Source: Bacteroides fragilis | GTDB taxonomy: Bacteria > Bacteroidota > Bacteroidia > Bacteroidales > DTGW01 | Direction of reading: 5' to 3' | NCBI GenBank assembly: GCA_945889005.1 | Contig: CAMDBI010000006.1 | Coordinates: 1-64,000, forward strand | Length of the DNA stretch: 64,000 nt | In this document: in pieces, positions 5,721-59,632 of the stretch | Layout: each line of letters starts with the position of its first letter | How positions within the stretch are numbered: position 1 is the stretch's first letter | Position numbers and translations under genes: made by a program | The notes under the pieces: generated by a model | Told to the model about the DNA's origin: nothing | What the model saw: the letters and a program-made list of their open reading frames with translations, nothing else | The model's database searches: none

Positions 5721-7046
5721 TTAATTTCCGCTGCGACCTTTAATACGTCCAGTCTTCATTAATCCATCGTAATGTCTCATTAAAAGGTGGCTTTCTATTT
5801 GCTGTAAAGAATCGAGTATTACCCCAACCATAATAAGCAAACTAGTACCTCCAAAGAACTGAGCAAATTGAGAGCTAACACCTGCCAATCGAGCAAATGC
5901 TGGCATAATTGCTACAAAAGCTAAAAATATAGAACCCGGTAGTACAATACGCGACATAACTTCGTCGATAAATTCAACTGTTTTCTTTCCTGGTTTAACA
6001 CCTGGTATAAAACCTCCGTTACGTTTCATATCTTCTGCCATTTGAGTTGGATTCATAATAATAGCAGTGTAAAAATATGTAAAAATGATAATTAGCAAAG
6101 CAAAAGTGAAATTGTACCAAAATCCTGTATAATCGGCAAAAGCAGCTACAAATCCACTAACACTTTCCGATTCAGTAAAACCCGCAATTGTTAAAGGAAT
6201 AAACATTAATGCTTGAGCAAAAATGATTGGCATTACTCCAGCAGCATTAACTTTTAAAGGAATGTACTGACGTACACCTCCATATTGCTTATTTCCGACT
6301 ATACGTTTAGCGTATTGTACAGGAATTTTTCGTGTTCCTTGAATAAGTAATATATTTATCATATATACAACAAAAAGTAACACAATTTCCAGTAAGAACA
6401 TTACCATTCCACCATTTTTTTCTTCAAGTCTGCTGGTAAATTCGCCTGCAAGTGCAAAAGGGAATCGAGCAATAATACCTACCATAATGATAAGAGAAAT
6501 ACCATTTCCTAAGCCTCGTTCGGTAATTCTTTCGCCTAACCACATTACAAACATGGTTCCTGCAGTAAGAAAAATAATTGAGGAAATATTGAACCAACCA
6601 GAGTTTGTAAATGCTTCTGCCGGTATTTGTGCATGTAAATTGGCAATGTAACTTGGACCTTGTAATACAAGAATAGCGACTGTTAATAGACGCGTAATTT
6701 GATTCATTTTGCGTCTGCCACTTTCGCCTTCTTTTTGAAGTCGTTGAAAATATGGAACTGCCATACCCAACAACTGCACAACGATAGAAGCAGAAATATA
6801 AGGCATAATACCTAGTGCGAAAATAGAAGCATTAGAGAATGCACCTCCTGAAAACATGTCTAACAAACCAAGAACACCTTCTGATGTTTGATTTTTTAAA
6901 CCTTCTAATGCCAAAGGATCAATACCTGGAAGCACTATAAAAGAACCTAAACGATAAATCAGTAACAACCCAAGTGTATAGAGTATTCGGTTACGAAGTT
7001 CTTCGATTTTATATATATTCTTTATGGTATTGATTAAAGTCTTCAT
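5721..7046 (-). CDS. secY: Protein translocase subunit SecY
   Basis: Central channel of the SecYEG translocon in the inner membrane. The 441-residue protein has about ten hydrophobic segments. Recognisable blocks include GIMPYISASIVVQLL, RTRKIPVQYAKR-like GTRKIPVQYAKRIVG, the NAAGVMPIIFA segment and NGGFIPGVKPGKKT. Its start overlaps the rplO stop by one base (TAATG), indicating translational coupling. Confidence 0.99.
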   Translation of the reverse strand: MKTLINTIKNIYKIEELRNRILYTLGLLLIYRLGSFIVLPGIDPLALEGLKNQTSEGVLGLLDMFSGGAFSNASIFALGIMPYISASIVVQLLGMAVPYFQRLQKEGESGRRKMNQITRLLTVAILVLQGPSYIANLHAQIPAEAFTNSGWFNISSIIFLTAGTMFVMWLGERITERGLGNGISLIIMVGIIARFPFALAGEFTSRLEEKNGGMVMFLLEIVLLFVVYMINILLIQGTRKIPVQYAKRIVGNKQYGGVRQYIPLKVNAAGVMPIIFAQALMFIPLTIAGFTESESVSGFVAAFADYTGFWYNFTFALLIIIFTYFYTAIIMNPTQMAEDMKRNGGFIPGVKPGKKTVEFIDEVMSRIVLPGSIFLAFVAIMPAFARLAGVSSQFAQFFGGTSLLIMVGVILDSLQQIESHLLMRHYDGLMKTGRIKGRSGN

Positions 7047-50517: not shown

Positions 50518-52008
50518 ATGGCAAAAAAAGTAGAAAAGTATAATCCGCGAACATACATGGAATTGTCCATTGAGGAAATGCTTAAAAGCAAGAAAGAACC
50601 TCGTCCCGATGGAAAAGTTCCACCTCAGGTAGGGGCAATATTGCTTTTCCCCGATGGTAAAATTGAAAGGGCTCATCGTGGAGAACTTCGCGATGGCGAC
50701 CATGCCGAATTTACCCTGCTCGAACGTAAACTTGGCGATAAAAAACTCGACGATTGTATTTTATTTACTACCCTCGAACCTTGTGTTGAACGGAACTCGC
50801 CCAAAATAGCTTGTTGCAAACGCACATCAAAAGCCCGAATTAAAACAGTTTATGTCGGTATTACCGACCCTGACTATACTGTCGATGGCAAGGGTATTAA
50901 ACACCTCGAAGACCACGGCGTAGAAATTATTATGTTCGACCGCGACCTTCAGAAACGAATCGAAGACGAAAATAAAGATTTCATTAGGCAAGCCAACGAA
51001 CGCAAACAAAAGAAAACAGAAGACGATTTTTCTATTCCTTACGAAAAACCACTTAAAAATGCCGATTTAAGTAAACTCTCTGATGAGGCTTTGCAGAAAT
51101 TTATTTCCGAATCGAAACTAAAATACAATGTGTCCGATGCTGAATTTCATGAATATCTCGAAGATGTCGGCGTTATTCAGTTCGATACTGCCGATAAAAT
51201 ATATAGACCAAACAGCTTTGGTATTTTACTTTTTGGTAAAAATCCGCGGAGCATTTTCAAACAGTCAGCTTTAATGGCTTCGGTCGAATATGGGAATAAT
51301 AAAATTGAGCCGCAGACATTTGACCAACCACTTGTTTTAATTCCCGATTTGGTTGAACAATGGCTTTTTAAGGTATTGCCATTAAACAAAGATACTTCTT
51401 CATTCAAACGTAAAGATATTGCTGAATTTCCCGTAAAGGTACTTCGCGAAGCTATAATTAATGCCATTGTTCATAGAGATTATACCCTCGAAGGGATAAA
51501 ATCGTCAATCGAAATCTATGACAATAAAATAATTGTTAATAGCCCAGGTGCTCTGGCACCTTCAATTTCAATTTCTCAGCTTAATTCGTTCAGGGCTCCT
51601 TCAATAAGTAGAAATCCTATAATCACATACGTTTTTAGTTTAATGAATTATGTCGAAGAAAAAGGCTTTGGTATGAGAATCTTACGTTCGTTACAAGAAG
51701 AATATGGTTTACCATTGCCCGAATACACATACAACGACCCCTATTTGTCTTTAAGTTTCCCGCGAAATATGAATGCTGTTGCTGATGTTTATAATAACGA
51801 AGCTATTAAAGAACTAAATGACGAAGAACTTAGAGGTTTTGAATATGTTAAACTTAAAGTTGAAATTAGTAAAAAAGAATATGCCGCTCATTTTGGGTTT
51901 GATGATAAAAAAGCATTACGCCATTTAGCTAAAATGAAAGAACTAGGTCTTATTAAAGATAATGGTGAAGCTCCTAACTCCCCTAATTATAAATATGTGG
52001 TAGCTTAA
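50518..52008 (+). CDS. Deaminase-RecG-like ATP-binding fusion protein
   Basis: The 496-residue protein joins two modules. Residues about 35-150 form a zinc-dependent nucleoside/RibD-type deaminase domain: HAEFTLLERKLG gives the His and catalytic Glu (about 62-64), and TTLEPCVERNSPKIACCKR gives the Cys ligands. Residues about 220-410 resemble the ATP-binding domain of divergent AAA_4/RecG-related regulators (VLREAIINAIVHRDYTLEG near 306). A winged-helix-like tail follows (KKEYAAHFGFDDKKALRHLA). Codon use is host-like, unlike the AT-rich genes before it. Neither a substrate nor a target can be stated; the neighbourhood suggests defence or regulation. Confidence 0.75.
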   Translation: MAKKVEKYNPRTYMELSIEEMLKSKKEPRPDGKVPPQVGAILLFPDGKIERAHRGELRDGDHAEFTLLERKLGDKKLDDCILFTTLEPCVERNSPKIACCKRTSKARIKTVYVGITDPDYTVDGKGIKHLEDHGVEIIMFDRDLQKRIEDENKDFIRQANERKQKKTEDDFSIPYEKPLKNADLSKLSDEALQKFISESKLKYNVSDAEFHEYLEDVGVIQFDTADKIYRPNSFGILLFGKNPRSIFKQSALMASVEYGNNKIEPQTFDQPLVLIPDLVEQWLFKVLPLNKDTSSFKRKDIAEFPVKVLREAIINAIVHRDYTLEGIKSSIEIYDNKIIVNSPGALAPSISISQLNSFRAPSISRNPIITYVFSLMNYVEEKGFGMRILRSLQEEYGLPLPEYTYNDPYLSLSFPRNMNAVADVYNNEAIKELNDEELRGFEYVKLKVEISKKEYAAHFGFDDKKALRHLAKMKELGLIKDNGEAPNSPNYKYVVA

Positions 52009-52369
52009 ATTATTGAACTTGGACAATAAGTTGGACATAGTGTCCAAGCTAAAGTTCTTTATAGAGGTAAAAAAGATGCACTTGGTCATACACTTGGTCA
52101 ACTTGTCCAAGTAGCAAATAATAAATTAAATCTGATATTTAAGTAATTATAGACATAAAAGTACACTGCATGGACATTCACACGGTCATTTTGTCCATGC
52201 TCATAATATTGATGCTATTAATTGCGATTGACTTGGACATAATAACTCAATTATTTACATTACAATCGATTAGGAAGTTTTTTAGTAGTTGAAAATATTC
52301 TACATAAAAGTGATTAAAATCTAAAATTGTCAATATATAAATGATTACAATAATGTTATCGTGTTAATT
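52009..52369. other. Intergenic region with TGGACA/TGTCCA palindromes
   Basis: A 361-bp stretch after the deaminase fusion gene. It contains at least two inverted repeats, TTGGACA-TAG-TGTCCAA (52031-52047) and GCATGGACA...TGTCCATGC (52168-52200), and further TTGG(A/T)CA copies. Read in the frame of the upstream gene beyond its stop, it gives a Gly-His/Gln-Leu-Val-Gln repeat-like string interrupted by stops, so it may be a decayed C-terminal tail. No other gene is seen. Confidence 0.5.
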
Positions 52370-52546
52370 ATGAAAAAAAGCTATGCAATTCTAACCGATG
52401 AGGAATTAAAGGAACTTACTGAAGTAGAAAAAGCCCATTACAAGGCTTATATTAGGAAAAACGTTCCTGTCGAGGATTTTCTAATTGAAAAGATGAGCGA
52501 ACACGCATTGAAAAAAGCGATTGAAAAGCAATCGGAAAAAAAATGA
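52370..52546 (+). CDS. Small hypothetical protein
   Basis: A 58-residue, charged, helical protein (ATG at 52370). It reads ILTDEELKELTEVEKAHYKA at the start and ends with a Lys/Glu-rich helix. Not recognised. It stands alone in an AT-rich stretch; coding status is uncertain. Confidence 0.4.
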   Translation: MKKSYAILTDEELKELTEVEKAHYKAYIRKNVPVEDFLIEKMSEHALKKAIEKQSEKK

Positions 52547-52686
52547 ATGAAATAAGTAGCAAATCCATTGTTATTGTTATCTTTATAGTTAATTTATCTG
52601 TTATTTATCTATGTTTATTTAACATTATTTTAATAGAAATTATTAACTTTTATGCGTAACTTTCGTTCTATATACATAACTTTTTT

Positions 52687-52694
52687 TAGTTTTG
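52687..52694 (+). promoter_or_regulatory. Promoter -7 box of the HEPN pair
   Basis: TAGTTTTG fits TAnnTTTG and lies 43 bases before the first ATG of the pair. Confidence 0.4.
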
Positions 52695-52737
52695 TCAACT
52701 CAATATCAAATTTATTCATATTTAACTATATAAGAAC

Positions 52738-53211
52738 ATGTCAAAAGTAGTAGCAGAAGAAACAGATATTTTTGCATCCAAAGCTGCCGACTTCTGGTTT
52801 GACCACCTTATTGAAAAAATTAGAGAAGACCAGGTATTGTTAAAAACAGGTATTGCGCCAAAAGAAAAGGAAGTTTTGTATAGTGCTTTTATTCAGGGCA
52901 ATATAGACCAATTGATTTCACGTAATCGTGAAGACACTACACAATATTTTATTTCTAAATTATTGTTCGAATATCTGGCCGAAGTAAAATCTCAAAATAT
53001 TGATTCCTCAAATTTAGCTTTTGACCATTCTAATTCAAAGGTTTTGGTTTGGGCTGTGGTTGATGAAGAATCCATTGAAGATAAATTAATTCTCACTCAA
53101 GCTAAAATCAATGCCAAATACTCTTCACAAGGGTTTTATATATCTACTTCTATTGTTGATAAGGACGACAATTTAATTATGCCTAATCACTATAGAAAAC
53201 TCGTATCGTAG
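52738..53211 (+). CDS. Hypothetical partner of a HEPN-like protein
   Basis: A 157-residue protein not assigned to a family. The N-terminal half is helical (FASKAADFWFDHLIEKIRED); the C-terminal half looks alpha/beta (SKVLVWAVVDEESIEDKLIL, then GFYISTSIVDKDDNLIMPNH). One base separates its stop from the ATG of the HEPN-like gene, so both are translated from one transcript. By position it could be an antitoxin or substrate-recognition partner. Confidence 0.7.
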   Translation: MSKVVAEETDIFASKAADFWFDHLIEKIREDQVLLKTGIAPKEKEVLYSAFIQGNIDQLISRNREDTTQYFISKLLFEYLAEVKSQNIDSSNLAFDHSNSKVLVWAVVDEESIEDKLILTQAKINAKYSSQGFYISTSIVDKDDNLIMPNHYRKLVS

Positions 53212-53212
53212 A

Positions 53213-53695
53213 ATGGCTTCTTATAATTCTCACATTACACAGGCTAATAAAAATTTAACTTTTTTACAGCAAATTTCACATACCGAAAACTATGAATGGC
53301 AAGTAACAGTGTGCTTTTATGTTGCAGTTCACTTAATTAATGCGCATATTGCCCAAAAAGCAAATCTTCACTATCGTACCCATAATCAGGTTGAACATGC
53401 TATCAATCCTCATAACGTTTTATCGGTTTCTAAACTAACAGAACCAGACTTCCTAGCATACAGCAAATTACACAATCTTTCACGCAGAGCAAGGTATCTA
53501 ATCCATGACGATATGGATAATCTTACATCAACTGAATGCTTCACTTACAGTAAACATCTTGCTAAATCATTAAAAAACCTAGATATTCTTCTTTCTTTCT
53601 TTGAAAATTCTTATTCGCTTAGTTTTGATACTACCGAGGTGAAATGCATTGATTTAAAAGGAAAATTTTCTTCAAAATATTTTAAAATAGTCTAA
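53213..53695 (+). CDS. HEPN-like protein
   Basis: A 160-residue helical protein with the layout of a HEPN domain: WQVTVCFYVAVHLINAHIAQ helix, a THNQVEHAINPHN loop and the candidate catalytic motif RARYLIHDD (R-x5-H). HEPN proteins are often metal-independent RNases in toxin-antitoxin and defence systems. The cotranscribed upstream gene is unknown. The motif spacing is within the known Rx4-6H range but the assignment is by pattern only. Confidence 0.6.
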   Translation: MASYNSHITQANKNLTFLQQISHTENYEWQVTVCFYVAVHLINAHIAQKANLHYRTHNQVEHAINPHNVLSVSKLTEPDFLAYSKLHNLSRRARYLIHDDMDNLTSTECFTYSKHLAKSLKNLDILLSFFENSYSLSFDTTEVKCIDLKGKFSSKYFKIV

Positions 53696-53842
53696 ATTTC
53701 TTTACCCTCAAATAAGAAAACACAATTCACGCAAAAGCGTTCTGCCGCAACCCAAACATTTTGTAGCATTAGTAAGTACTTTTTATGAGATCGATAAACT
53801 GTCTTTTTCTTTTCAAAAGCAACATTTATTATTCTTTATAGT

Positions 53843-53948
53843 ATTACTAATGAAACAAATATTTGATATTTGCTTATGAAAAGAAAAAAGAATTGTTACA
53901 TAAGTTTTGTACCTTTGTGTAAAATACAGAATCCATGAAAGCGGTTAA
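53843..53948 (+). repeat. P repeat, copy A: promoter segment of mntA-hepT
   Basis: A 106-bp segment, differing by only four bases from 54801-54906. It contains a strong TACCTTTG promoter box (53910-53917) and ends with ATGAAAGCGGTTAA, the first codons of an antitoxin frame. In this copy that frame stops after 15 codons (53935-53982) and mntA begins inside it at 53966. Confidence 0.9.
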
Positions 53949-53965
53949 TCATCAAAATTATTACA

Positions 53966-54271
53966 ATGCTATACAAGAATGATATTTTGAAATACTTAAC
54001 GGACAACAAAGATTATTTCAAGGATAAATTTTATGTTGATAAAATAGGCTTGGCAGGCTCTTTTGCCCGTGGCGATTTTAACAATGATAGCGACATTGAC
54101 TTAGTTGTTTACTTCTTGCCCGAGGCTGTTAATCATCGTATTTTCAGGCTGTATATTAACTTACAAGAAACAATTTCAAATTATTTTAACAAAAAGGTCG
54201 ACATTATTGCAAATGGAAAAGTATTGCCTGCATTTAAAGAGATAATTGAAAAAGAAACCATTTATGTTTAA
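53966..54271 (+). CDS. mntA: MntA-type minimal nucleotidyltransferase antitoxin
   Basis: The 101-residue protein has the nucleotidyltransferase motif GSFARGDFNNDSDIDLVVYF (GSx10DxD) and a later Asp in KKVDIIANG, as in MntA. MntA antitoxins adenylylate the HepT toxin on a Tyr next to its active site. It overlaps hepT by 8 bp. The gene lies between P copy A and R copy 1. Confidence 0.9.
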   Translation: MLYKNDILKYLTDNKDYFKDKFYVDKIGLAGSFARGDFNNDSDIDLVVYFLPEAVNHRIFRLYINLQETISNYFNKKVDIIANGKVLPAFKEIIEKETIYV

Positions 54272-54614
54272 AAAAGACGATATAGCCAATCTTAACAACA
54301 TTATTTGGGCAATACAAAGGATAGAAAAAAGCATTTCAGGTATAAAATCTGTAGAAGAGTTAGTTGTACTCGAAGAAAAATTTGATTCAATCGTTGTAAT
54401 GCTAATGAATATTGGGGAGTCTGCTTACAACTTAAGTGAGGAACTCAAATACAAAAATAGCGATGTTGATTGGAATGGAATGTACAAAATGAGGAACATT
54501 ATAACACACTCATATCATAGCTTAGATGAAACAATAGTTTGGGATATTATACTAAACGAGCTGCCCGAAGATAAAATAGCTGTTGAAAAATTATTACAAA
54601 AGATGATGAATTAA
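54264..54614 (+). CDS. hepT: HepT-like HEPN toxin (DUF86)
   Basis: The 116-residue helical protein has the RX4HXY motif as RNIITHSY (in KMRNIITHSYHSLDE), the RNase active site with the Tyr that MntA modifies. The ATG at 54264 is preferred over an in-frame TTG at 54246. The pair matches the MntA-HepT (type VII) toxin-antitoxin design in order, size and motifs. Confidence 0.9.
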   Translation: MFKKDDIANLNNIIWAIQRIEKSISGIKSVEELVVLEEKFDSIVVMLMNIGESAYNLSEELKYKNSDVDWNGMYKMRNIITHSYHSLDETIVWDIILNELPEDKIAVEKLLQKMMN

Positions 54615-54642
54615 TAAAGCAATATCATGAAAATTTAAAAAA

Positions 54643-54800
54643 TTGCCCAATTCAGGCCCCAAAAATATAAGTAGCGCTGTATCGATTTGAATATTCCCTT
54701 CCACCCTTTTAAAGGTACAGGTCATATTGTTATATTTTCCCCATTTGCCTGTGGCACATGTCGCTCACTTCACTTCATATCGCTTCGGGGCTTCATTGCA
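54643..54800 (+). repeat. R repeat, copy 1
   Basis: A 158-bp non-coding segment behind hepT that is similar (about 80 percent by eye, with small indels) to 55391-55549. Shared blocks include TTGCCCAATTCAG at the start, AAAGGTACAGGTCATATTGT, and at the end TGTGGCACATGTCGCTCACT followed by GCTTCGGGGCTTCATTGCA. P copy B starts at the very next base. Confidence 0.88.
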
Positions 54801-54906
54801 ATTACTAATGAAACAAATATTTGATATTTGCTTATGAAAAGAAAAAAGAATTGTTATATAAGTTTTGTACCTTTGTGTAAAATATTGAAACCATGAAAGC
54901 GGTTAA
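54801..54906 (+). repeat. P repeat, copy B: promoter segment of the antitoxin-ParE pair
   Basis: A 106-bp segment with 102 of 106 bases identical to 53843-53948. The promoter box TACCTTTG lies at 54868-54875. It includes the ATG and first codons (MKAV) of the downstream antitoxin. Confidence 0.9.
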
Positions 54907-55072
54907 ACATACAACAGAAACAGGCAGACGCAACTGGGCTATACCCAATCAGACAGTTTCGCACGAGGAGTTTATGGCTTCTATTAGAAAAGCCGAAGAA
55001 GGTCCATTTATGACAATTGATGAGTTTAAAGAACGTTTTAATAAATGGAAAAACGAAAAATACCCGTTGTAA
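54893..55072 (+). CDS. Putative antitoxin of a ParE pair
   Basis: A 59-residue protein, too short for most ORF lists. It starts in P copy B (MKAVKHTTETGRRNWAIPNQ) and ends with an acidic helix (EEGPFMTIDEFKERFNKWKN), as do antitoxins that wrap RelE/ParE toxins. It overlaps the toxin gene by 28 bp, a strong sign of coupling. Family not recognised. Confidence 0.75.
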   Translation: MKAVKHTTETGRRNWAIPNQTVSHEEFMASIRKAEEGPFMTIDEFKERFNKWKNEKYPL

Positions 55073-55377
55073 AATCGGAAGTCTATTACTACGATGTTCA
55101 AAATATATTTGATTATGGAGTAGAGGTTTTTGGGTATCATGCTGCAGATGCTTTTGTAGAAGATTTGATATCCAAAGTTGAGAGCTTAGCATTTCAATAT
55201 GAACTTTATCCGGAATGTAGGCATATAACTACCAAAAATCGAATTTACAGAAACATAATTTTAGCTTCATATCTTATTATTTATAGAATTACACCTAATA
55301 AAATAGAAGTATTAAGGGCAATAAGTGGAAGAATGTCCGTTTCAAAAATTAAAGCTGTAAGAAGTATAAAATTGTAG
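55045..55377 (+). CDS. RelE/ParE-family toxin
   Basis: The 110-residue protein has the ParE pattern: YYYDVQNIFDYGVEVFGYHA in the first helix, a middle YELYPECRHITTKNRIYRNI block and strands SYLIIYRITPNKIEVLRAIS. Located between the overlapping antitoxin gene and R copy 2. Confidence 0.85.
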   Translation: MEKRKIPVVKSEVYYYDVQNIFDYGVEVFGYHAADAFVEDLISKVESLAFQYELYPECRHITTKNRIYRNIILASYLIIYRITPNKIEVLRAISGRMSVSKIKAVRSIKL

Positions 55378-55390
55378 ATTTTACAATACT

Positions 55391-55549
55391 TTGCCCAATT
55401 CAGCCCCCAAAAAATATATGTATATCTGTATCGTTTAAATTTTCCCACCCACCCTTTCAAAGGTACAGGTCATATTGTTTAAAAGCTTTCCATTTTCCTG
55501 TGGCACATGTCGCTCACTTCACTTCATATTGCTTCGGGGCTTCATTGCA
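55391..55549 (+). repeat. R repeat, copy 2
   Basis: The second copy of the ~158-bp segment, directly after the ParE toxin gene. It ends with GCTTCGGGGCTTCATTGCA like copy 1, but is not followed by another P segment; instead the hip module begins about 100 bp later. Confidence 0.88.
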
Positions 55550-55651
55550 TTTCAACACCCTTCGCTTTATTCCGTTCATTGACCTCCAAGAGCCTCTGCA
55601 ACACACAGCAAAAGTAACGCTTTCACTTCAAAAACCGTTCAATCGTTTTTA

Positions 55652-55665
55652 CACCCGATAGGGTG
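55652..55665 (+). promoter_or_regulatory. hip operator 1
   Basis: CACCCGATAGGGTG, an imperfect form of the palindrome TACCCGAWAGGGTA. Exactly 40 bp before operator 2. Confidence 0.7.
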
Positions 55666-55691
55666 CAAATTTGAAATTAAAAAATATTTAA

Positions 55692-55705
55692 TACCCGATA
55701 AGGTA
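55692..55705 (+). promoter_or_regulatory. hip operator 2
   Basis: TACCCGATAAGGTA, covering the expected -33 region of the hipB promoter. Exactly 40 bp before operator 3. Confidence 0.7.
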
Positions 55706-55723
55706 TAAATATTAAATATTCAC

Positions 55724-55731
55724 TATATTTG
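55724..55731 (+). promoter_or_regulatory. Promoter -7 box of hipBST
   Basis: TATATTTG fits TAnnTTTG. It abuts operator 3, so a bound repressor should block initiation. The predicted leader before the hipB ATG is only about a dozen bases. Confidence 0.6.
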
Positions 55732-55745
55732 TACCCGAAAGGGTA
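55732..55745 (+). promoter_or_regulatory. hip operator 3
   Basis: TACCCGAAAGGGTA, a near-perfect palindrome lying over the predicted transcription start, 4 bp before the hipB ATG. Confidence 0.75.
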
Positions 55746-55749
55746 TATT

Positions 55750-55971
55750 ATGAAACTTGATGAATTTGTAAAAGACAAAAGACGAAAAGCAAACCTGACA
55801 CAACCAGAACTAGCCGAAAAAGCTGGAGTTGGGTTGCGTTTTATGCGTGAATTGGAGCAAGGAAAGGAAACGTTACGCATGGATAAAGTCAATCAGGTAT
55901 TGAGACTATTTGGCCATGAACTTCAAGCTGTTCAAATAAACCGAGATATAGAATTAAATGAGAAAGGCTGA
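55750..55971 (+). CDS. hipB: HipB-like HTH repressor/antitoxin
   Basis: A 73-residue single-domain XRE-type helix-turn-helix protein (RRKANLTQPELAEKAGVGLR then FMRELEQGKETLRMDKV). The ATG at 55750 is chosen because it follows operator 3; an upstream in-frame start would lie in the operator. It overlaps hipS by 14 bp. It should bind the three upstream palindromes and repress the operon. Confidence 0.88.
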   Translation: MKLDEFVKDKRRKANLTQPELAEKAGVGLRFMRELEQGKETLRMDKVNQVLRLFGHELQAVQINRDIELNEKG

Positions 55972-56290
55972 AATTAAAATACATAATTTTCGAGCTGGTT
56001 GGCTTTTACAAGATGAGAATGGGTATAGCTTTCAATATGAAACAGATTATCTAAAATCAAATTCTCCTGTTCCGGTCAGTTTAACTTTACCATTACAAGA
56101 AAAAGCTTTTGAATCGAAGGTCTTATTCGCTTTTTTTGATGGTCTAATTCCAGAAGGTTGGTTATTAGATATTGCTGAAAATAATTGGAAGTTAAACCCT
56201 CGAGATCGCATGGGTTTGTTATTGGCATGTTGCAAAGATTGTATCGGGGCAGTAAGTGTAATTCCGAATTACGAGGAGGATAATCAATGA
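55958..56290 (+). CDS. hipS: HipS-like protein (HipA N-subdomain)
   Basis: A 110-residue protein equal to the N-terminal subdomain of HipA: FRAGWLLQDENGYSFQYETD, then PVPVSLTLPLQEKAFESKVL and FFDGLIPEGWLLDIAENNW. In tripartite HipBST systems the separate HipS acts as the antitoxin that neutralises HipT. It overlaps hipT by four bases (ATGA). Confidence 0.88.
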   Translation: MRKAEIKIHNFRAGWLLQDENGYSFQYETDYLKSNSPVPVSLTLPLQEKAFESKVLFAFFDGLIPEGWLLDIAENNWKLNPRDRMGLLLACCKDCIGAVSVIPNYEEDNQ

Positions 56291-57228
56291 TAAATTGTTT
56301 ATATTGTTATCAGCCTATTTTAGAGGGCATTGGCGATTTTCATCCAACTTGTAGTCGAAAGATATTTTCACTGCCCAATCCTCCCGAATTGCCATATAGT
56401 GAAAGCGATATGGAACATCTAGCATTGCAAGTTGTAAGAAGTCAAGTTACGGTAACAGGGGTGCAAGCAAAATTATCTTTAAATATAGCAGACGGAGAAA
56501 AAAAGGATGTGCCTAAACGTTTTACAATTGTTGGATTATGGGGAGGATATATTTTAAAACCACCATCTGAAAAATTTCCCCAATTACCAGAAGTTGAAGA
56601 TTTGACAATGCATCTGGCTGATATAGCAAAAATATTTGTTGTTCCTCATAGTTTAATACGTTTGAAGTCGGGCAATTTGGCTTATATCACCAAACGAATC
56701 GACCGAAACAAAGGTAATAAGTTAGCAATGGAAGACATGTGTCAGCTTACGGAAAGGCTTACAGAAGATAAGTACCATGGATCATATGAGCAAATTGCTA
56801 AGGTAATTCTCAAACACTCAGCTAATCCAGTACTAGACGTTGTTAATTTCTATGAACAAGTTTTATTCTCATATTTAACAGGTAATGCAGATATGCATTT
56901 AAAAAATTTTTCTCTGATTGAACAACCAGGCTCGGGAAATGTGCTTTCTCCTGCTTATGATTTGGTTGCCACTGTGCTTGTAAATCCTGCTGATGATGAA
57001 GAATTAGCACTTACACTCAATGGTAAAAAGAAGAAAATAAAAAAAAGTGATTTCGTTGAGGCTTTTTACACAGCAAAACTAGATACTAAACAACAAGAAA
57101 ACATCTTTAATAAAATGCAAAAGGCATTTCCCAAATGGTTGACATTTATTGACAAAAGTTTTCTGAGTGAAAATTTTAAGAATACCTTAAAAGAATTATT
57201 GTACAATCGAATTAAAATAATTGGTTAA
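56287..57228 (+). CDS. hipT: HipT-like serine/threonine kinase toxin
   Basis: A 313-residue HipA-like kinase lacking the N-terminal subdomain, as in HipT. It begins with a Cys4-type knuckle (CLYC...H-x2-C, residues 4-22). The Gly-rich loop is VTVTGVQAKLSLN, with Thr55-Val-Thr57 where characterised HipT has a Ser-x-Ser autophosphorylation motif. The catalytic loop is NADMHLKNFSLI (about residue 200) and the metal-binding Asp is in AYDLVAT (about 224). The E. coli O127 HipT phosphorylates TrpS; the target here is unknown. Confidence 0.88.
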   Translation: MINCLYCYQPILEGIGDFHPTCSRKIFSLPNPPELPYSESDMEHLALQVVRSQVTVTGVQAKLSLNIADGEKKDVPKRFTIVGLWGGYILKPPSEKFPQLPEVEDLTMHLADIAKIFVVPHSLIRLKSGNLAYITKRIDRNKGNKLAMEDMCQLTERLTEDKYHGSYEQIAKVILKHSANPVLDVVNFYEQVLFSYLTGNADMHLKNFSLIEQPGSGNVLSPAYDLVATVLVNPADDEELALTLNGKKKKIKKSDFVEAFYTAKLDTKQQENIFNKMQKAFPKWLTFIDKSFLSENFKNTLKELLYNRIKIIG

Positions 57229-57388
57229 TTTTTTTCCTTATGTTTAAATATTTCATTTCAAGGACTTGTTTTTTTGTGGGGGCAAATGAAAATGATATTT
57301 TAAAAACCTTAAAACAAATTAAATAACGCATTACATCTGACCAATTCACGTTATTGATAAATTGTCAAATAAGTTCTATTTTTCAGGG

Positions 57389-59632
57389 ATGAAAAAAACT
57401 ATTGAACTACTAGCTCCAGGTGGTGATATTGACTCTATTAAAGCGGCAATTGTTGCAGGTGCAGATGCTGTATATTGTGGCCTCGGTAAATTTAACGCTC
57501 GCAATAGAGCTACAAATATAAGCTTCGACGATCTCAATGGCATTTTACGGCTTGCGCATAACAACAATTGTCAGGTATTTCTGACTCTTAATATCATTAT
57601 TGTCGATAGTGAAATCGCTGAACTCATTGGCTTGCTCAACAAACTCGTTAATACAAGTATCGATGCTATTATTATTCAGGATCTCGGACTGTTTTATCTG
57701 TTATCGAACTATTTCAAAAGCCTTCATATTCATGCATCCACACAGCTTACCACACACAACGAAGGACAAATAAGGTTTTTGGGCAAACTAAATGCCAGCC
57801 GGGTCAATTTGTCGAGAGAGTTAAATATTCATGAAATAAAAGCCTTGACAGATGTTGCTCACCATAACAATGTTTTAACAGAAGTATTTGTTCACGGTTC
57901 GAACTGTTTAAGTTTTTCGGGCATTTGCTATATGAGCTCTTTACAGAGTGGAAACTCCGGCAATCGTGGACGATGCAGTCAGCCTTGCCGCGACCAGTAT
58001 GTTCGAACATCTGAAGGCAAAAACTTTCCCCTGAATCTTAAAGACAATTCGGCGTTTCTCAATCTGAATGAATTATCAGATGCCGGAGTCGATTCGCTTA
58101 AAATTGAGGGGCGAATTAAAAAATTCCATTACGTATACACCGTTGTGGATGCCTGGCGAAAACAACTACAGCGTTTTTATAATACGGAAAAGCAAAATGC
58201 CGACAACAACCAACTTTATAGAGTGTTTAACCGCGATTTCTCAAATGGATTTTTAACAGGCGATATTAATGCATCAATGTTTATTGATAATCCCCGCGAT
58301 CACTCGGCCATACATTTTTCTGAAACAAAAGGCCACGATATTGATATAAATTTGAATAATGCCAAAGGAGCTATTTACGAAGAAAGAACAGAAATTATTA
58401 CTGCCGTCGAAAGTCAAATTAAGCAATTAAGCATTGCCAAAGCACCTTTAAAAATAAGTGTTTCGGGGTGTTGTGGCACTCCTTTTAAAGTATCGGTAGC
58501 CACACCCAACGCTTCGTTTGATGTACAATCTGACTGCAATCTGTCAAACGAAGGAGCAGAGCTTTTAAGTTACGAAATGATTTTTAAAAGGCTGAAATCG
58601 CTAAACGATACCGAATTTCAGATTGAGCAGCTGGACTTAACAGATCTTTCTCCTAATGTTTATTTGCCTTTTAAAGAGCTCACGTCTATTAAAAACAGAC
58701 TGTTGTTTGTCTTGAATGGTTCGAGAGAAACGATAGCTCCTGTTGCTCTTCCCATATTGAAAAAACATAACAGACAAAACGGCAAAGCATCTCTTTCTAT
58801 ACTATTATCGTCGCCACAGGATTTGCACCTTAGTATAGAGACCGCTGCCACTATCTATTTTCAATTGCCCAATCATTTGAAAAATGATTTTTTTGAGTTT
58901 GTAACTATTTTTAAACATAACAAAGAGTTAATTCCCTGGTTTCCCTCCATTTTAATTGGCGAGAACTACAGTGCTGCTATTGAGTTTCTCCAACTGGTAC
59001 AACCTTCGTCCATTGTAACAAACAATTTAGGAATAGCTTACGAAGCCTGGCAAAAAAGTATTCCGTGGATAGCAGGGCCCAACTTAAACATTGTCAATTC
59101 CTTTAGTTTATTGTGTTTAAAAGAAAACTTCAATTGTTGTGGTGCATTTATTTCAAATGAGATTAGTAAAGTGCAGATAAAGGCTATTAAAAAACCTGCA
59201 AATTTCGATCTTTATTATAGTATATATCACCCTATAGAGTTAATGACGAGTCGACAATGCCTGTTTCATCAGGTTACCGGATGCGAAAAAAATCGGATGG
59301 ATGATACATGTATTCAACAATGTGAAAAACTCACAAGTATTACAAATTTTAAAAACAGCACTTTTATTATCGAAAAATCAAAGGGAAACTATCATCGTAT
59401 CTATAATAAAACTAATTTTATAAATACTGAAATTATTACCGATTTTCCAGATTTGTTCTCTGGTTTTACGGTCGATTTGCGTAACATAAAAACCGAAACA
59501 AATATTGAAAAAGATAAATTGAGCGTGATTAAATGTTTTGAAGATTTTCTCAATGTGAATCGCGACTCTCAAAAAGAACTCAATCAAATTATTTTTCCAA
59601 CAACAAATATCCAATACAAAATAGGAATCTAA
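57389..59632 (+). CDS. Peptidase U32-family protein (RlhA/YegQ-like)
   Basis: A 747-residue protein. The ATG at 57389 starts the family N-terminus MKKTIELLAPGGDIDSIKAA; an in-frame TTG at 57362 is less likely. The U32 core has SGICYMSSLQSGNSGNRGRC then SQPCR, the Cys cluster that in RlhA, TrhP and UbiU/V binds 4Fe-4S. A second Cys-containing block near the end (CLFHQVTGCEKNRMDDTC) may add ligands. Members hydroxylate rRNA or tRNA or are annotated as collagenases; the long C-terminal part is closest to the RlhA (YdcP) type. No operon partner. Confidence 0.88.
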   Translation: MKKTIELLAPGGDIDSIKAAIVAGADAVYCGLGKFNARNRATNISFDDLNGILRLAHNNNCQVFLTLNIIIVDSEIAELIGLLNKLVNTSIDAIIIQDLGLFYLLSNYFKSLHIHASTQLTTHNEGQIRFLGKLNASRVNLSRELNIHEIKALTDVAHHNNVLTEVFVHGSNCLSFSGICYMSSLQSGNSGNRGRCSQPCRDQYVRTSEGKNFPLNLKDNSAFLNLNELSDAGVDSLKIEGRIKKFHYVYTVVDAWRKQLQRFYNTEKQNADNNQLYRVFNRDFSNGFLTGDINASMFIDNPRDHSAIHFSETKGHDIDINLNNAKGAIYEERTEIITAVESQIKQLSIAKAPLKISVSGCCGTPFKVSVATPNASFDVQSDCNLSNEGAELLSYEMIFKRLKSLNDTEFQIEQLDLTDLSPNVYLPFKELTSIKNRLLFVLNGSRETIAPVALPILKKHNRQNGKASLSILLSSPQDLHLSIETAATIYFQLPNHLKNDFFEFVTIFKHNKELIPWFPSILIGENYSAAIEFLQLVQPSSIVTNNLGIAYEAWQKSIPWIAGPNLNIVNSFSLLCLKENFNCCGAFISNEISKVQIKAIKKPANFDLYYSIYHPIELMTSRQCLFHQVTGCEKNRMDDTCIQQCEKLTSITNFKNSTFIIEKSKGNYHRIYNKTNFINTEIITDFPDLFSGFTVDLRNIKTETNIEKDKLSVIKCFEDFLNVNRDSQKELNQIIFPTTNIQYKIGI

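Follow-up and report, generated by a model that had tools for sequence, protein, structure and literature searches.

Two unrelated toxin-antitoxin (TA) modules lie head to tail between positions 53843 and 55549 of the stretch of DNA analyzed here (64,000 nucleotides, herein the window; part of a 124-kb contig), each enclosed by one copy of a 5′ segment, P, and one copy of a downstream repeat, R. Unit 1 consists of P copy A, mntA-hepT, and R copy 1 (R1); unit 2 consists of P copy B, antitoxin-parE, and R copy 2 (R2). Judged from its sequence, P is by descent the 5′ end of the antitoxin-parE operon, and the arrangement probably arose by tandem duplication of the antitoxin-parE unit, followed by replacement of the genes of the redundant copy by mntA-hepT. 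On this reading, an unrelated TA module now uses the promoter of a redundant TA copy, and two modules could thereby become tied to a single operator.

Layout and gene content of the two units

The initial annotation of this DNA described two P-module-R units, the second starting right after the first, with P copies that differ at 4 of 106 bases. Both statements are confirmed: R1 ends at 54800 and P copy B starts at 54801, so the units abut directly with one repeat per unit, and the alignment of P can be extended to 110 nt with five mismatches, four of them within the first 106. The features are as follows (all but the palindromes on the plus strand):

53804-53822 (+): left arm of an inverted repeat, matching 53870-53888 in P copy A at 18 of 19 bases
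53843-53952 (+): P copy A; holds the promoter region, an operator-like palindrome, and the opening codons of an antitoxin gene that appears to have been lost
53856-53865 (no strand): operator candidate in copy A, palindrome CAAATATTTG followed by ATATTTG
53935-53982 (+): 15-codon stub ORF (MKAVNHQNYYNAIQE) from the antitoxin start, overlapping the start of mntA by 17 bases
53966-54271 (+): mntA, adenylyltransferase-type antitoxin; NTP_transf_2, GSX10DXD motif
54267-54614 (+): hepT, HEPN RNase-type toxin; HepT-like, RX4HXY motif
54643-54800 (+): R copy 1, downstream repeat
54801-54910 (+): P copy B; promoter and 5′ end of the antitoxin gene, which is intact here
54814-54823 (no strand): operator candidate in copy B, palindrome CAAATATTTG followed by ATATTTG
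54893-55072 (+): 59-aa antitoxin of the parE module; no Pfam match, homologues precede related ParE genes
55045-55377 (+): parE-family toxin; ParE_toxin
55391-55549 (+): R copy 2, downstream repeat

R had been described as similar throughout. The similarity does extend over the whole repeat (21 of 162 aligned columns differ), but the differences are unevenly distributed: the last 53 columns hold a single one. The first 56 bases of P are identical between the copies. The resulting impression that the outer ends of the units are conserved is striking by eye; we rejected it as nonsignificant, because with the cut fixed at the middle the outer and inner halves carry 9 and 17 differences, respectively, in 136 positions each (p = 0.15). 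The divergence of P (5/110) and that of R (21/162) are unequal (Fisher p = 0.02). R begins 13 nt past the parE stop codon and 28 nt past that of hepT. Across the genome itself (3.26 Mb, 99.42% complete), P and R are each present in two copies at E ≤ 0.001, and no third copy of either was found; the E-values of the second copies (1.4e-44 for P and 2.1e-47 for R) are far past chance.

The enclosed genes are unrelated by their Pfam families, in agreement with the initial annotation. In unit 1 an MNT gene adjoins a HEPN gene; the pair scores above the Pfam cut-offs for PF01909 and PF01934 and carries GSFARGDFNNDSDID and RNIITHSY, instances of GSX10DXD and RX4HXY, the motifs given as defining the HepT/MntA module in PMC7641770. 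Scores against the NCBIfam equivalog models NF047752 and NF047751 are 38.8 and 34.2 bits, below the cut-off of 60, and we therefore class the pair as HepT/MntA-like on the strength of its domains and motifs. It resembles type VII HepT/MntA (HEPN-MNT) systems in gene order, Pfam families, and both motifs, and differs from them in its sub-cut-off NCBIfam scores and in a promoter apparently copied from a parE operon.

The toxin of unit 2 matches PF05016 with 35.7 bits (cut-off 23). Its gene is overlapped by the 59-aa antitoxin ORF, homologues of which turned up at 8 of the 29 ParE loci inspected and also at L048 and L049, on contigs C5 and C15 of the same genome. A ParE_toxin domain and a small, overlapping, upstream antitoxin gene liken unit 2 to ParE-family type II (parDE-like) systems, from which it differs in that neither protein matched an NCBIfam model and the antitoxin matched no Pfam model either. 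Three additional ParE matches lie elsewhere in the genome. Those at C5:121001-121318 and C15:32972-33187 belong to antitoxin-parE loci of the same family, and in both the parE frame is interrupted, which argues that this family multiplies and decays in this genome. The third, on C11, has an open frame and is more distant (37%); no antitoxin homologue was found at that locus.

Descent of P and a candidate operator

The last 18 bases of P, ATGAAAGCGGTTAA(A/T)CAT, form the beginning of the antitoxin gene (MKAVKH...). Its ATG lies at 54893 in copy B and has a counterpart at 53935 in copy A, where it opens the stub ORF, which is unrelated to mntA. The earlier reading of P as a promoter stands insofar as P is a promoter region, but P is not purely noncoding. 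The promoter is of a type that points to Bacteroidota.

An antitoxin-parE pair in a genome of the same family (locus L019 of G004) starts MKSVK and encodes an antitoxin 61% and a toxin 51% identical to those of the window. TTTTGTACCTTT lies 18 nt upstream of ATGAAAGCGGTTAAA in the window and 16 nt upstream of ATGAAGTCGGTGAAA in L019; promoter and “MKxVK” start recur together ahead of antitoxin-parE in this locus. The other antitoxin homologues start differently (L018, MNTKTIK; L020, MRTKAVK; L048, MKSSVK; L049, MKTATTKEKNW), and the promoter of P is not recognizable at this level upstream of any homologue except that of L019, so that the promoter match comes from one genome. Inspection by eye of the 70 bases upstream of 29 MntA homologues revealed no such leader. 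The homology of P to the 5′ end of antitoxin-parE makes copy A, to all appearances, a copied parE promoter with an antitoxin stub. A check of the flanks of 29 ParE and 29 HepT loci returned weak matches at L018 (42 bases, 76%), L038 (21 bases), and L072 (37 bases, 78%), which we put down to chance or general promoter likeness.

Within the window, the perfect palindrome CAAATATTTG occurs only in the two P copies. Going by the protein families, each operon would work as an ordinary TA module, with MntA adenylylating HepT and the small antitoxin binding ParE. As the same palindrome stands in both promoters, the antitoxin-ParE complex might repress mntA-hepT too. If CAAATATTTG is the operator of that complex, mntA-hepT may come under its control as well, a possibility that we raise tentatively and consider rather doubtful. 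Cross-regulation of the two modules is the most useful testable consequence of the arrangement.

Comparison with integron-type cassettes

A homologue of the mntA-hepT pair (L080) in G240, a genome of the same order, is a cassette at positions 6035-6699 of a real array, and the integron-type reading was tested for this reason. The array (L143; G240:C17:1-20000) is of integron type, with an attC-like repeat of ∼125 bp represented by six start copies and eight end copies between 884 and 18996 of its 20 kb; no integrase was found among ten of its ORFs scanned with Pfam. Besides mntA-hepT, the genes of the array include a Gp49/HTH (higBA-like) pair and those for a reverse transcriptase and a DUF3644 protein.

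The first bases of an integron cassette should pair with the beginning of the cassette's own repeat. In L143 this complementarity is perfect over 10 bases in five of six consecutive pairs (the sixth spans 11 kb and other genes), whereas each unit of the window reaches 4 bases, which is also the most frequent length among 3000 random pairs. The L143 repeat has AAC at its start (6/6) and GTT at its end (8/8); R1 and R2 both run CAAT ... ATTG. The strict attC consensus is RYYYAAC ... GTTRRRY; it is absent from both copies of R, and in the control array, too, it is present in only 0/6 starts and 1/8 ends, so that it does not discriminate between the two. The initial annotation suggested looking for a conserved folded site in R; the folding of R is no better than that of shuffled sequences (z from −0.52 to 0.19). 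Five L143 sites, picked by pattern, gave z from −1.5 to −2.9 on the bottom strand and from −0.9 to −3.4 on the top strand, the latter being weak in two of the five (−0.9 and −1.2). The ends of R are weakly self-complementary (CAATTCAGCCCC / GGGGCTTCATTG), with p between 0.007 and 0.077 depending on end length and control; over 20-base ends the two copies score 13.5 and 15.0 against 12.0 to 15.5 in the five control sites, and over 40-base ends R is lower. The best match to the integron integrase model (TIGR02249) in the 99.42%-complete genome reaches 109.3 bits, and none is above the cut-off of 265.

The cassette-like character first ascribed to the units is thus not borne out: the complementarity seen in true integron cassettes is missing from them, and no integrase passes the cut-off. 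By these tests R is not an attC, and a much decayed attC is just conceivable. Among known systems, a CALIN is a cluster of attC sites lacking an integrase (PMC9024848). The two units are like an integron array or CALIN in that they abut directly and in the order of genes followed by a repeat of ∼160 bp. They differ in having no cassette-start complementarity, no AAC/GTT ends, no hairpin signal, and no integrase over the cut-off, as well as in comprising only two copies with a shared 110-bp 5′ segment.

Elsewhere, short inverted motifs like GTTATGCCC...GGGCATAAC, some of them imperfect, stand just outside the genes at four HepT/MntA loci (L057, L075, L078, and L082), which, as in L143, suggests from the sequence that these are cassettes. 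No array was found round three of them: the region of L082 (L144) has no repeats, that of L057 (L145) has minisatellites, and that of L075 (L146) has families of two to three copies.

Searches for further units and origin of the pair

Searches for R in relatives, for the two-unit region in mobile elements, and for short stretches of R and P in viral contigs gave no further unit. Among five genomes of the family (own included), R is found in its own genome only. Among 393 genomes of the order (own included), four others matched; inspected singly, these matches are 26 to 33 nt long and AT-rich or attributable to chance. R1 with P copy B, searched in 395 genomes of the class (own included), matched eight others over 25 to 41 nt, as judged from coordinates. 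R was accordingly not found in the sampled relatives of order or class beyond its own genome. The tail of R2 with the right flank matched three genomes besides its own among 383 of the order, those three only upstream of hipB. The order, class, and R2-tail searches scored the two best first-look candidates per genome, which limits their sensitivity. In nine chosen genomes searched with E up to 1, the matches listed include a weak one in G014 (E = 0.014) within the AT-rich part of R. G080 and G183, both of genus g80, gave at least 114 and at least 172 weak matches, respectively; those listed fall in the AT-rich stretch after R2, are often tens to hundreds of bases apart, and apparently represent a genus-specific repeat unrelated to R.

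A scan of 84,980 genomes for an exact R 20-mer, which would miss divergent copies, returned one match, in an actinomycete, that extends over 22 of 23 bases and no further and is taken as chance. Viral contigs gave no match to a 31-mer of R, a 22-mer of the right flank, or a 25-mer of P, and no ParE or MntA relative in a close-relative search. The whole two-unit region is without a match in plasmids and phages; R2 with the right flank gave four matches of 39 to 59 bases there, and tblastn with the open frame that runs through R2 into the right flank gave none in plasmids. Nothing in 52000-58000 matched Rfam at E ≤ 1. Titles and abstract beginnings in one open-access library yielded no paper on such TA units. 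We regard R as having been duplicated along with the rest of the unit.

The three junctions (left flank to P, R to P, and R to right flank) have the layout of a tandem duplication, from which we infer that an ancestral P-antitoxin-parE-R unit was duplicated. The second copy would have been kept intact, leaving the first redundant; in the first, the antitoxin and parE coding sequences would have been lost and mntA-hepT would have taken their place, behind the first antitoxin codons and ahead of R, thereby coming to lie downstream of a copied parE-operon promoter, the order of these events being our reconstruction. The duplication is favored by the fact that no P or R was found in the genome beyond these two copies and by the multiplication and decay of the antitoxin-parE family there, and the inverted repeat that copy A forms with the left flank (18/19) suggests that copy A may be in its native left context. 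Against it stands the unequal divergence of P and R, the main loose end, which is not expected of a single event unless P is constrained; such constraint could account for it, and so could a separate origin of the copies. Replacement also requires two nonhomologous junctions that must be postulated, which we count against this reading, nor was any trace of parE seen in unit 1. A relative whose locus is empty or holds a single unit was likewise not found, so the duplication is not seen directly. The U32 peptidase gene beside the island, searched in six related genomes, has only partial matches of 35 to 42% in five and none in G003, so synteny is unusable.

The layout could also have been produced by a circle or plasmid carrying P-mntA-hepT-R that integrated into a resident P-antitoxin-parE-R through a single crossover in the homologous P or R, with no need of a dedicated enzyme. 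The product would have the layout observed, and the unequal divergence of P and R would fit copies from different lineages; we nevertheless think such an entry unlikely, as the two-unit region has no match in plasmids or phages, no R lies near 29 HepT/MntA loci, and R was not found in the order and class samples. We give still less credence to a degenerate, integrase-less array of two cassettes in which R1 and R2 would be decayed attC sites. Direct abutment, the position of R 13 and 28 nt past the stop codons, R ends on par with control sites over 20 bases, and the homologous cassette in L143 all fit such an array, but the complementarity of 4 rather than 10 bases, the CAAT ... ATTG ends, folding at shuffle level, and the low integrase score do not, and homology of attC sites would leave the 110-bp P unexplained.

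The least probable proposals invoke a process of their own. The initial annotation named a site-specific enzyme as one of two routes of exchange; on this view a dedicated site-specific system, of a kind not yet known, moves P-X-R units. Exact abutment and the near-identical outer ends (the 56 bases of P and the 53 columns of R) are what such a system would leave; we hold it to be very improbable, given that outer and inner halves do not differ significantly, that the three junctions have by eye no common core longer than 2 to 3 bases, and that no further units were found in the own genome, the order and class samples, or the 84,980-genome scan. A related and equally remote conjecture takes P-X-R as a rare nonintegron cassette, in which the head of P and the tail of R would be substrates of an unknown recombination process that swaps TA modules while the promoter and operator ahead of them stay constant, with captured modules controlled by the resident antitoxin. 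If P-X-R units did move, they would form a cassette system whose units bring their own promoter; at the sensitivity available, the evidence speaks against such movement. Of the exchange of modules first proposed, one instance stands, an unrelated TA module lying between homologous ends. A recurrent cassette system is unsupported, in view of the failure to find further P in the genome or further R there and in the sampled relatives, the parE descent of P, the absence of cassette-type complementarity, and the lack of an integrase. Other modules flanked by P and R had been anticipated, whereas neither segment was found anywhere else in the genome and R was not found in the sampled relatives; one local duplication followed by gene replacement, the contrary outcome named in the initial annotation, accounts for the matches seen.

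The stretch around the units may be an island of defense and TA genes. Upstream, an ORF at 50518-52008 has a RibD-like deaminase N terminus and a C terminus that we take, by eye, to resemble AlbA/Schlafen-type ATP-binding proteins; two further upstream ORFs gave no family matches. Downstream of the units, at 55750-57228, hipB precedes a hipA homologue that is divided between an N-terminal ORF of 110 aa and a C-terminal kinase ORF of 313 aa, an arrangement like that of HipBST.
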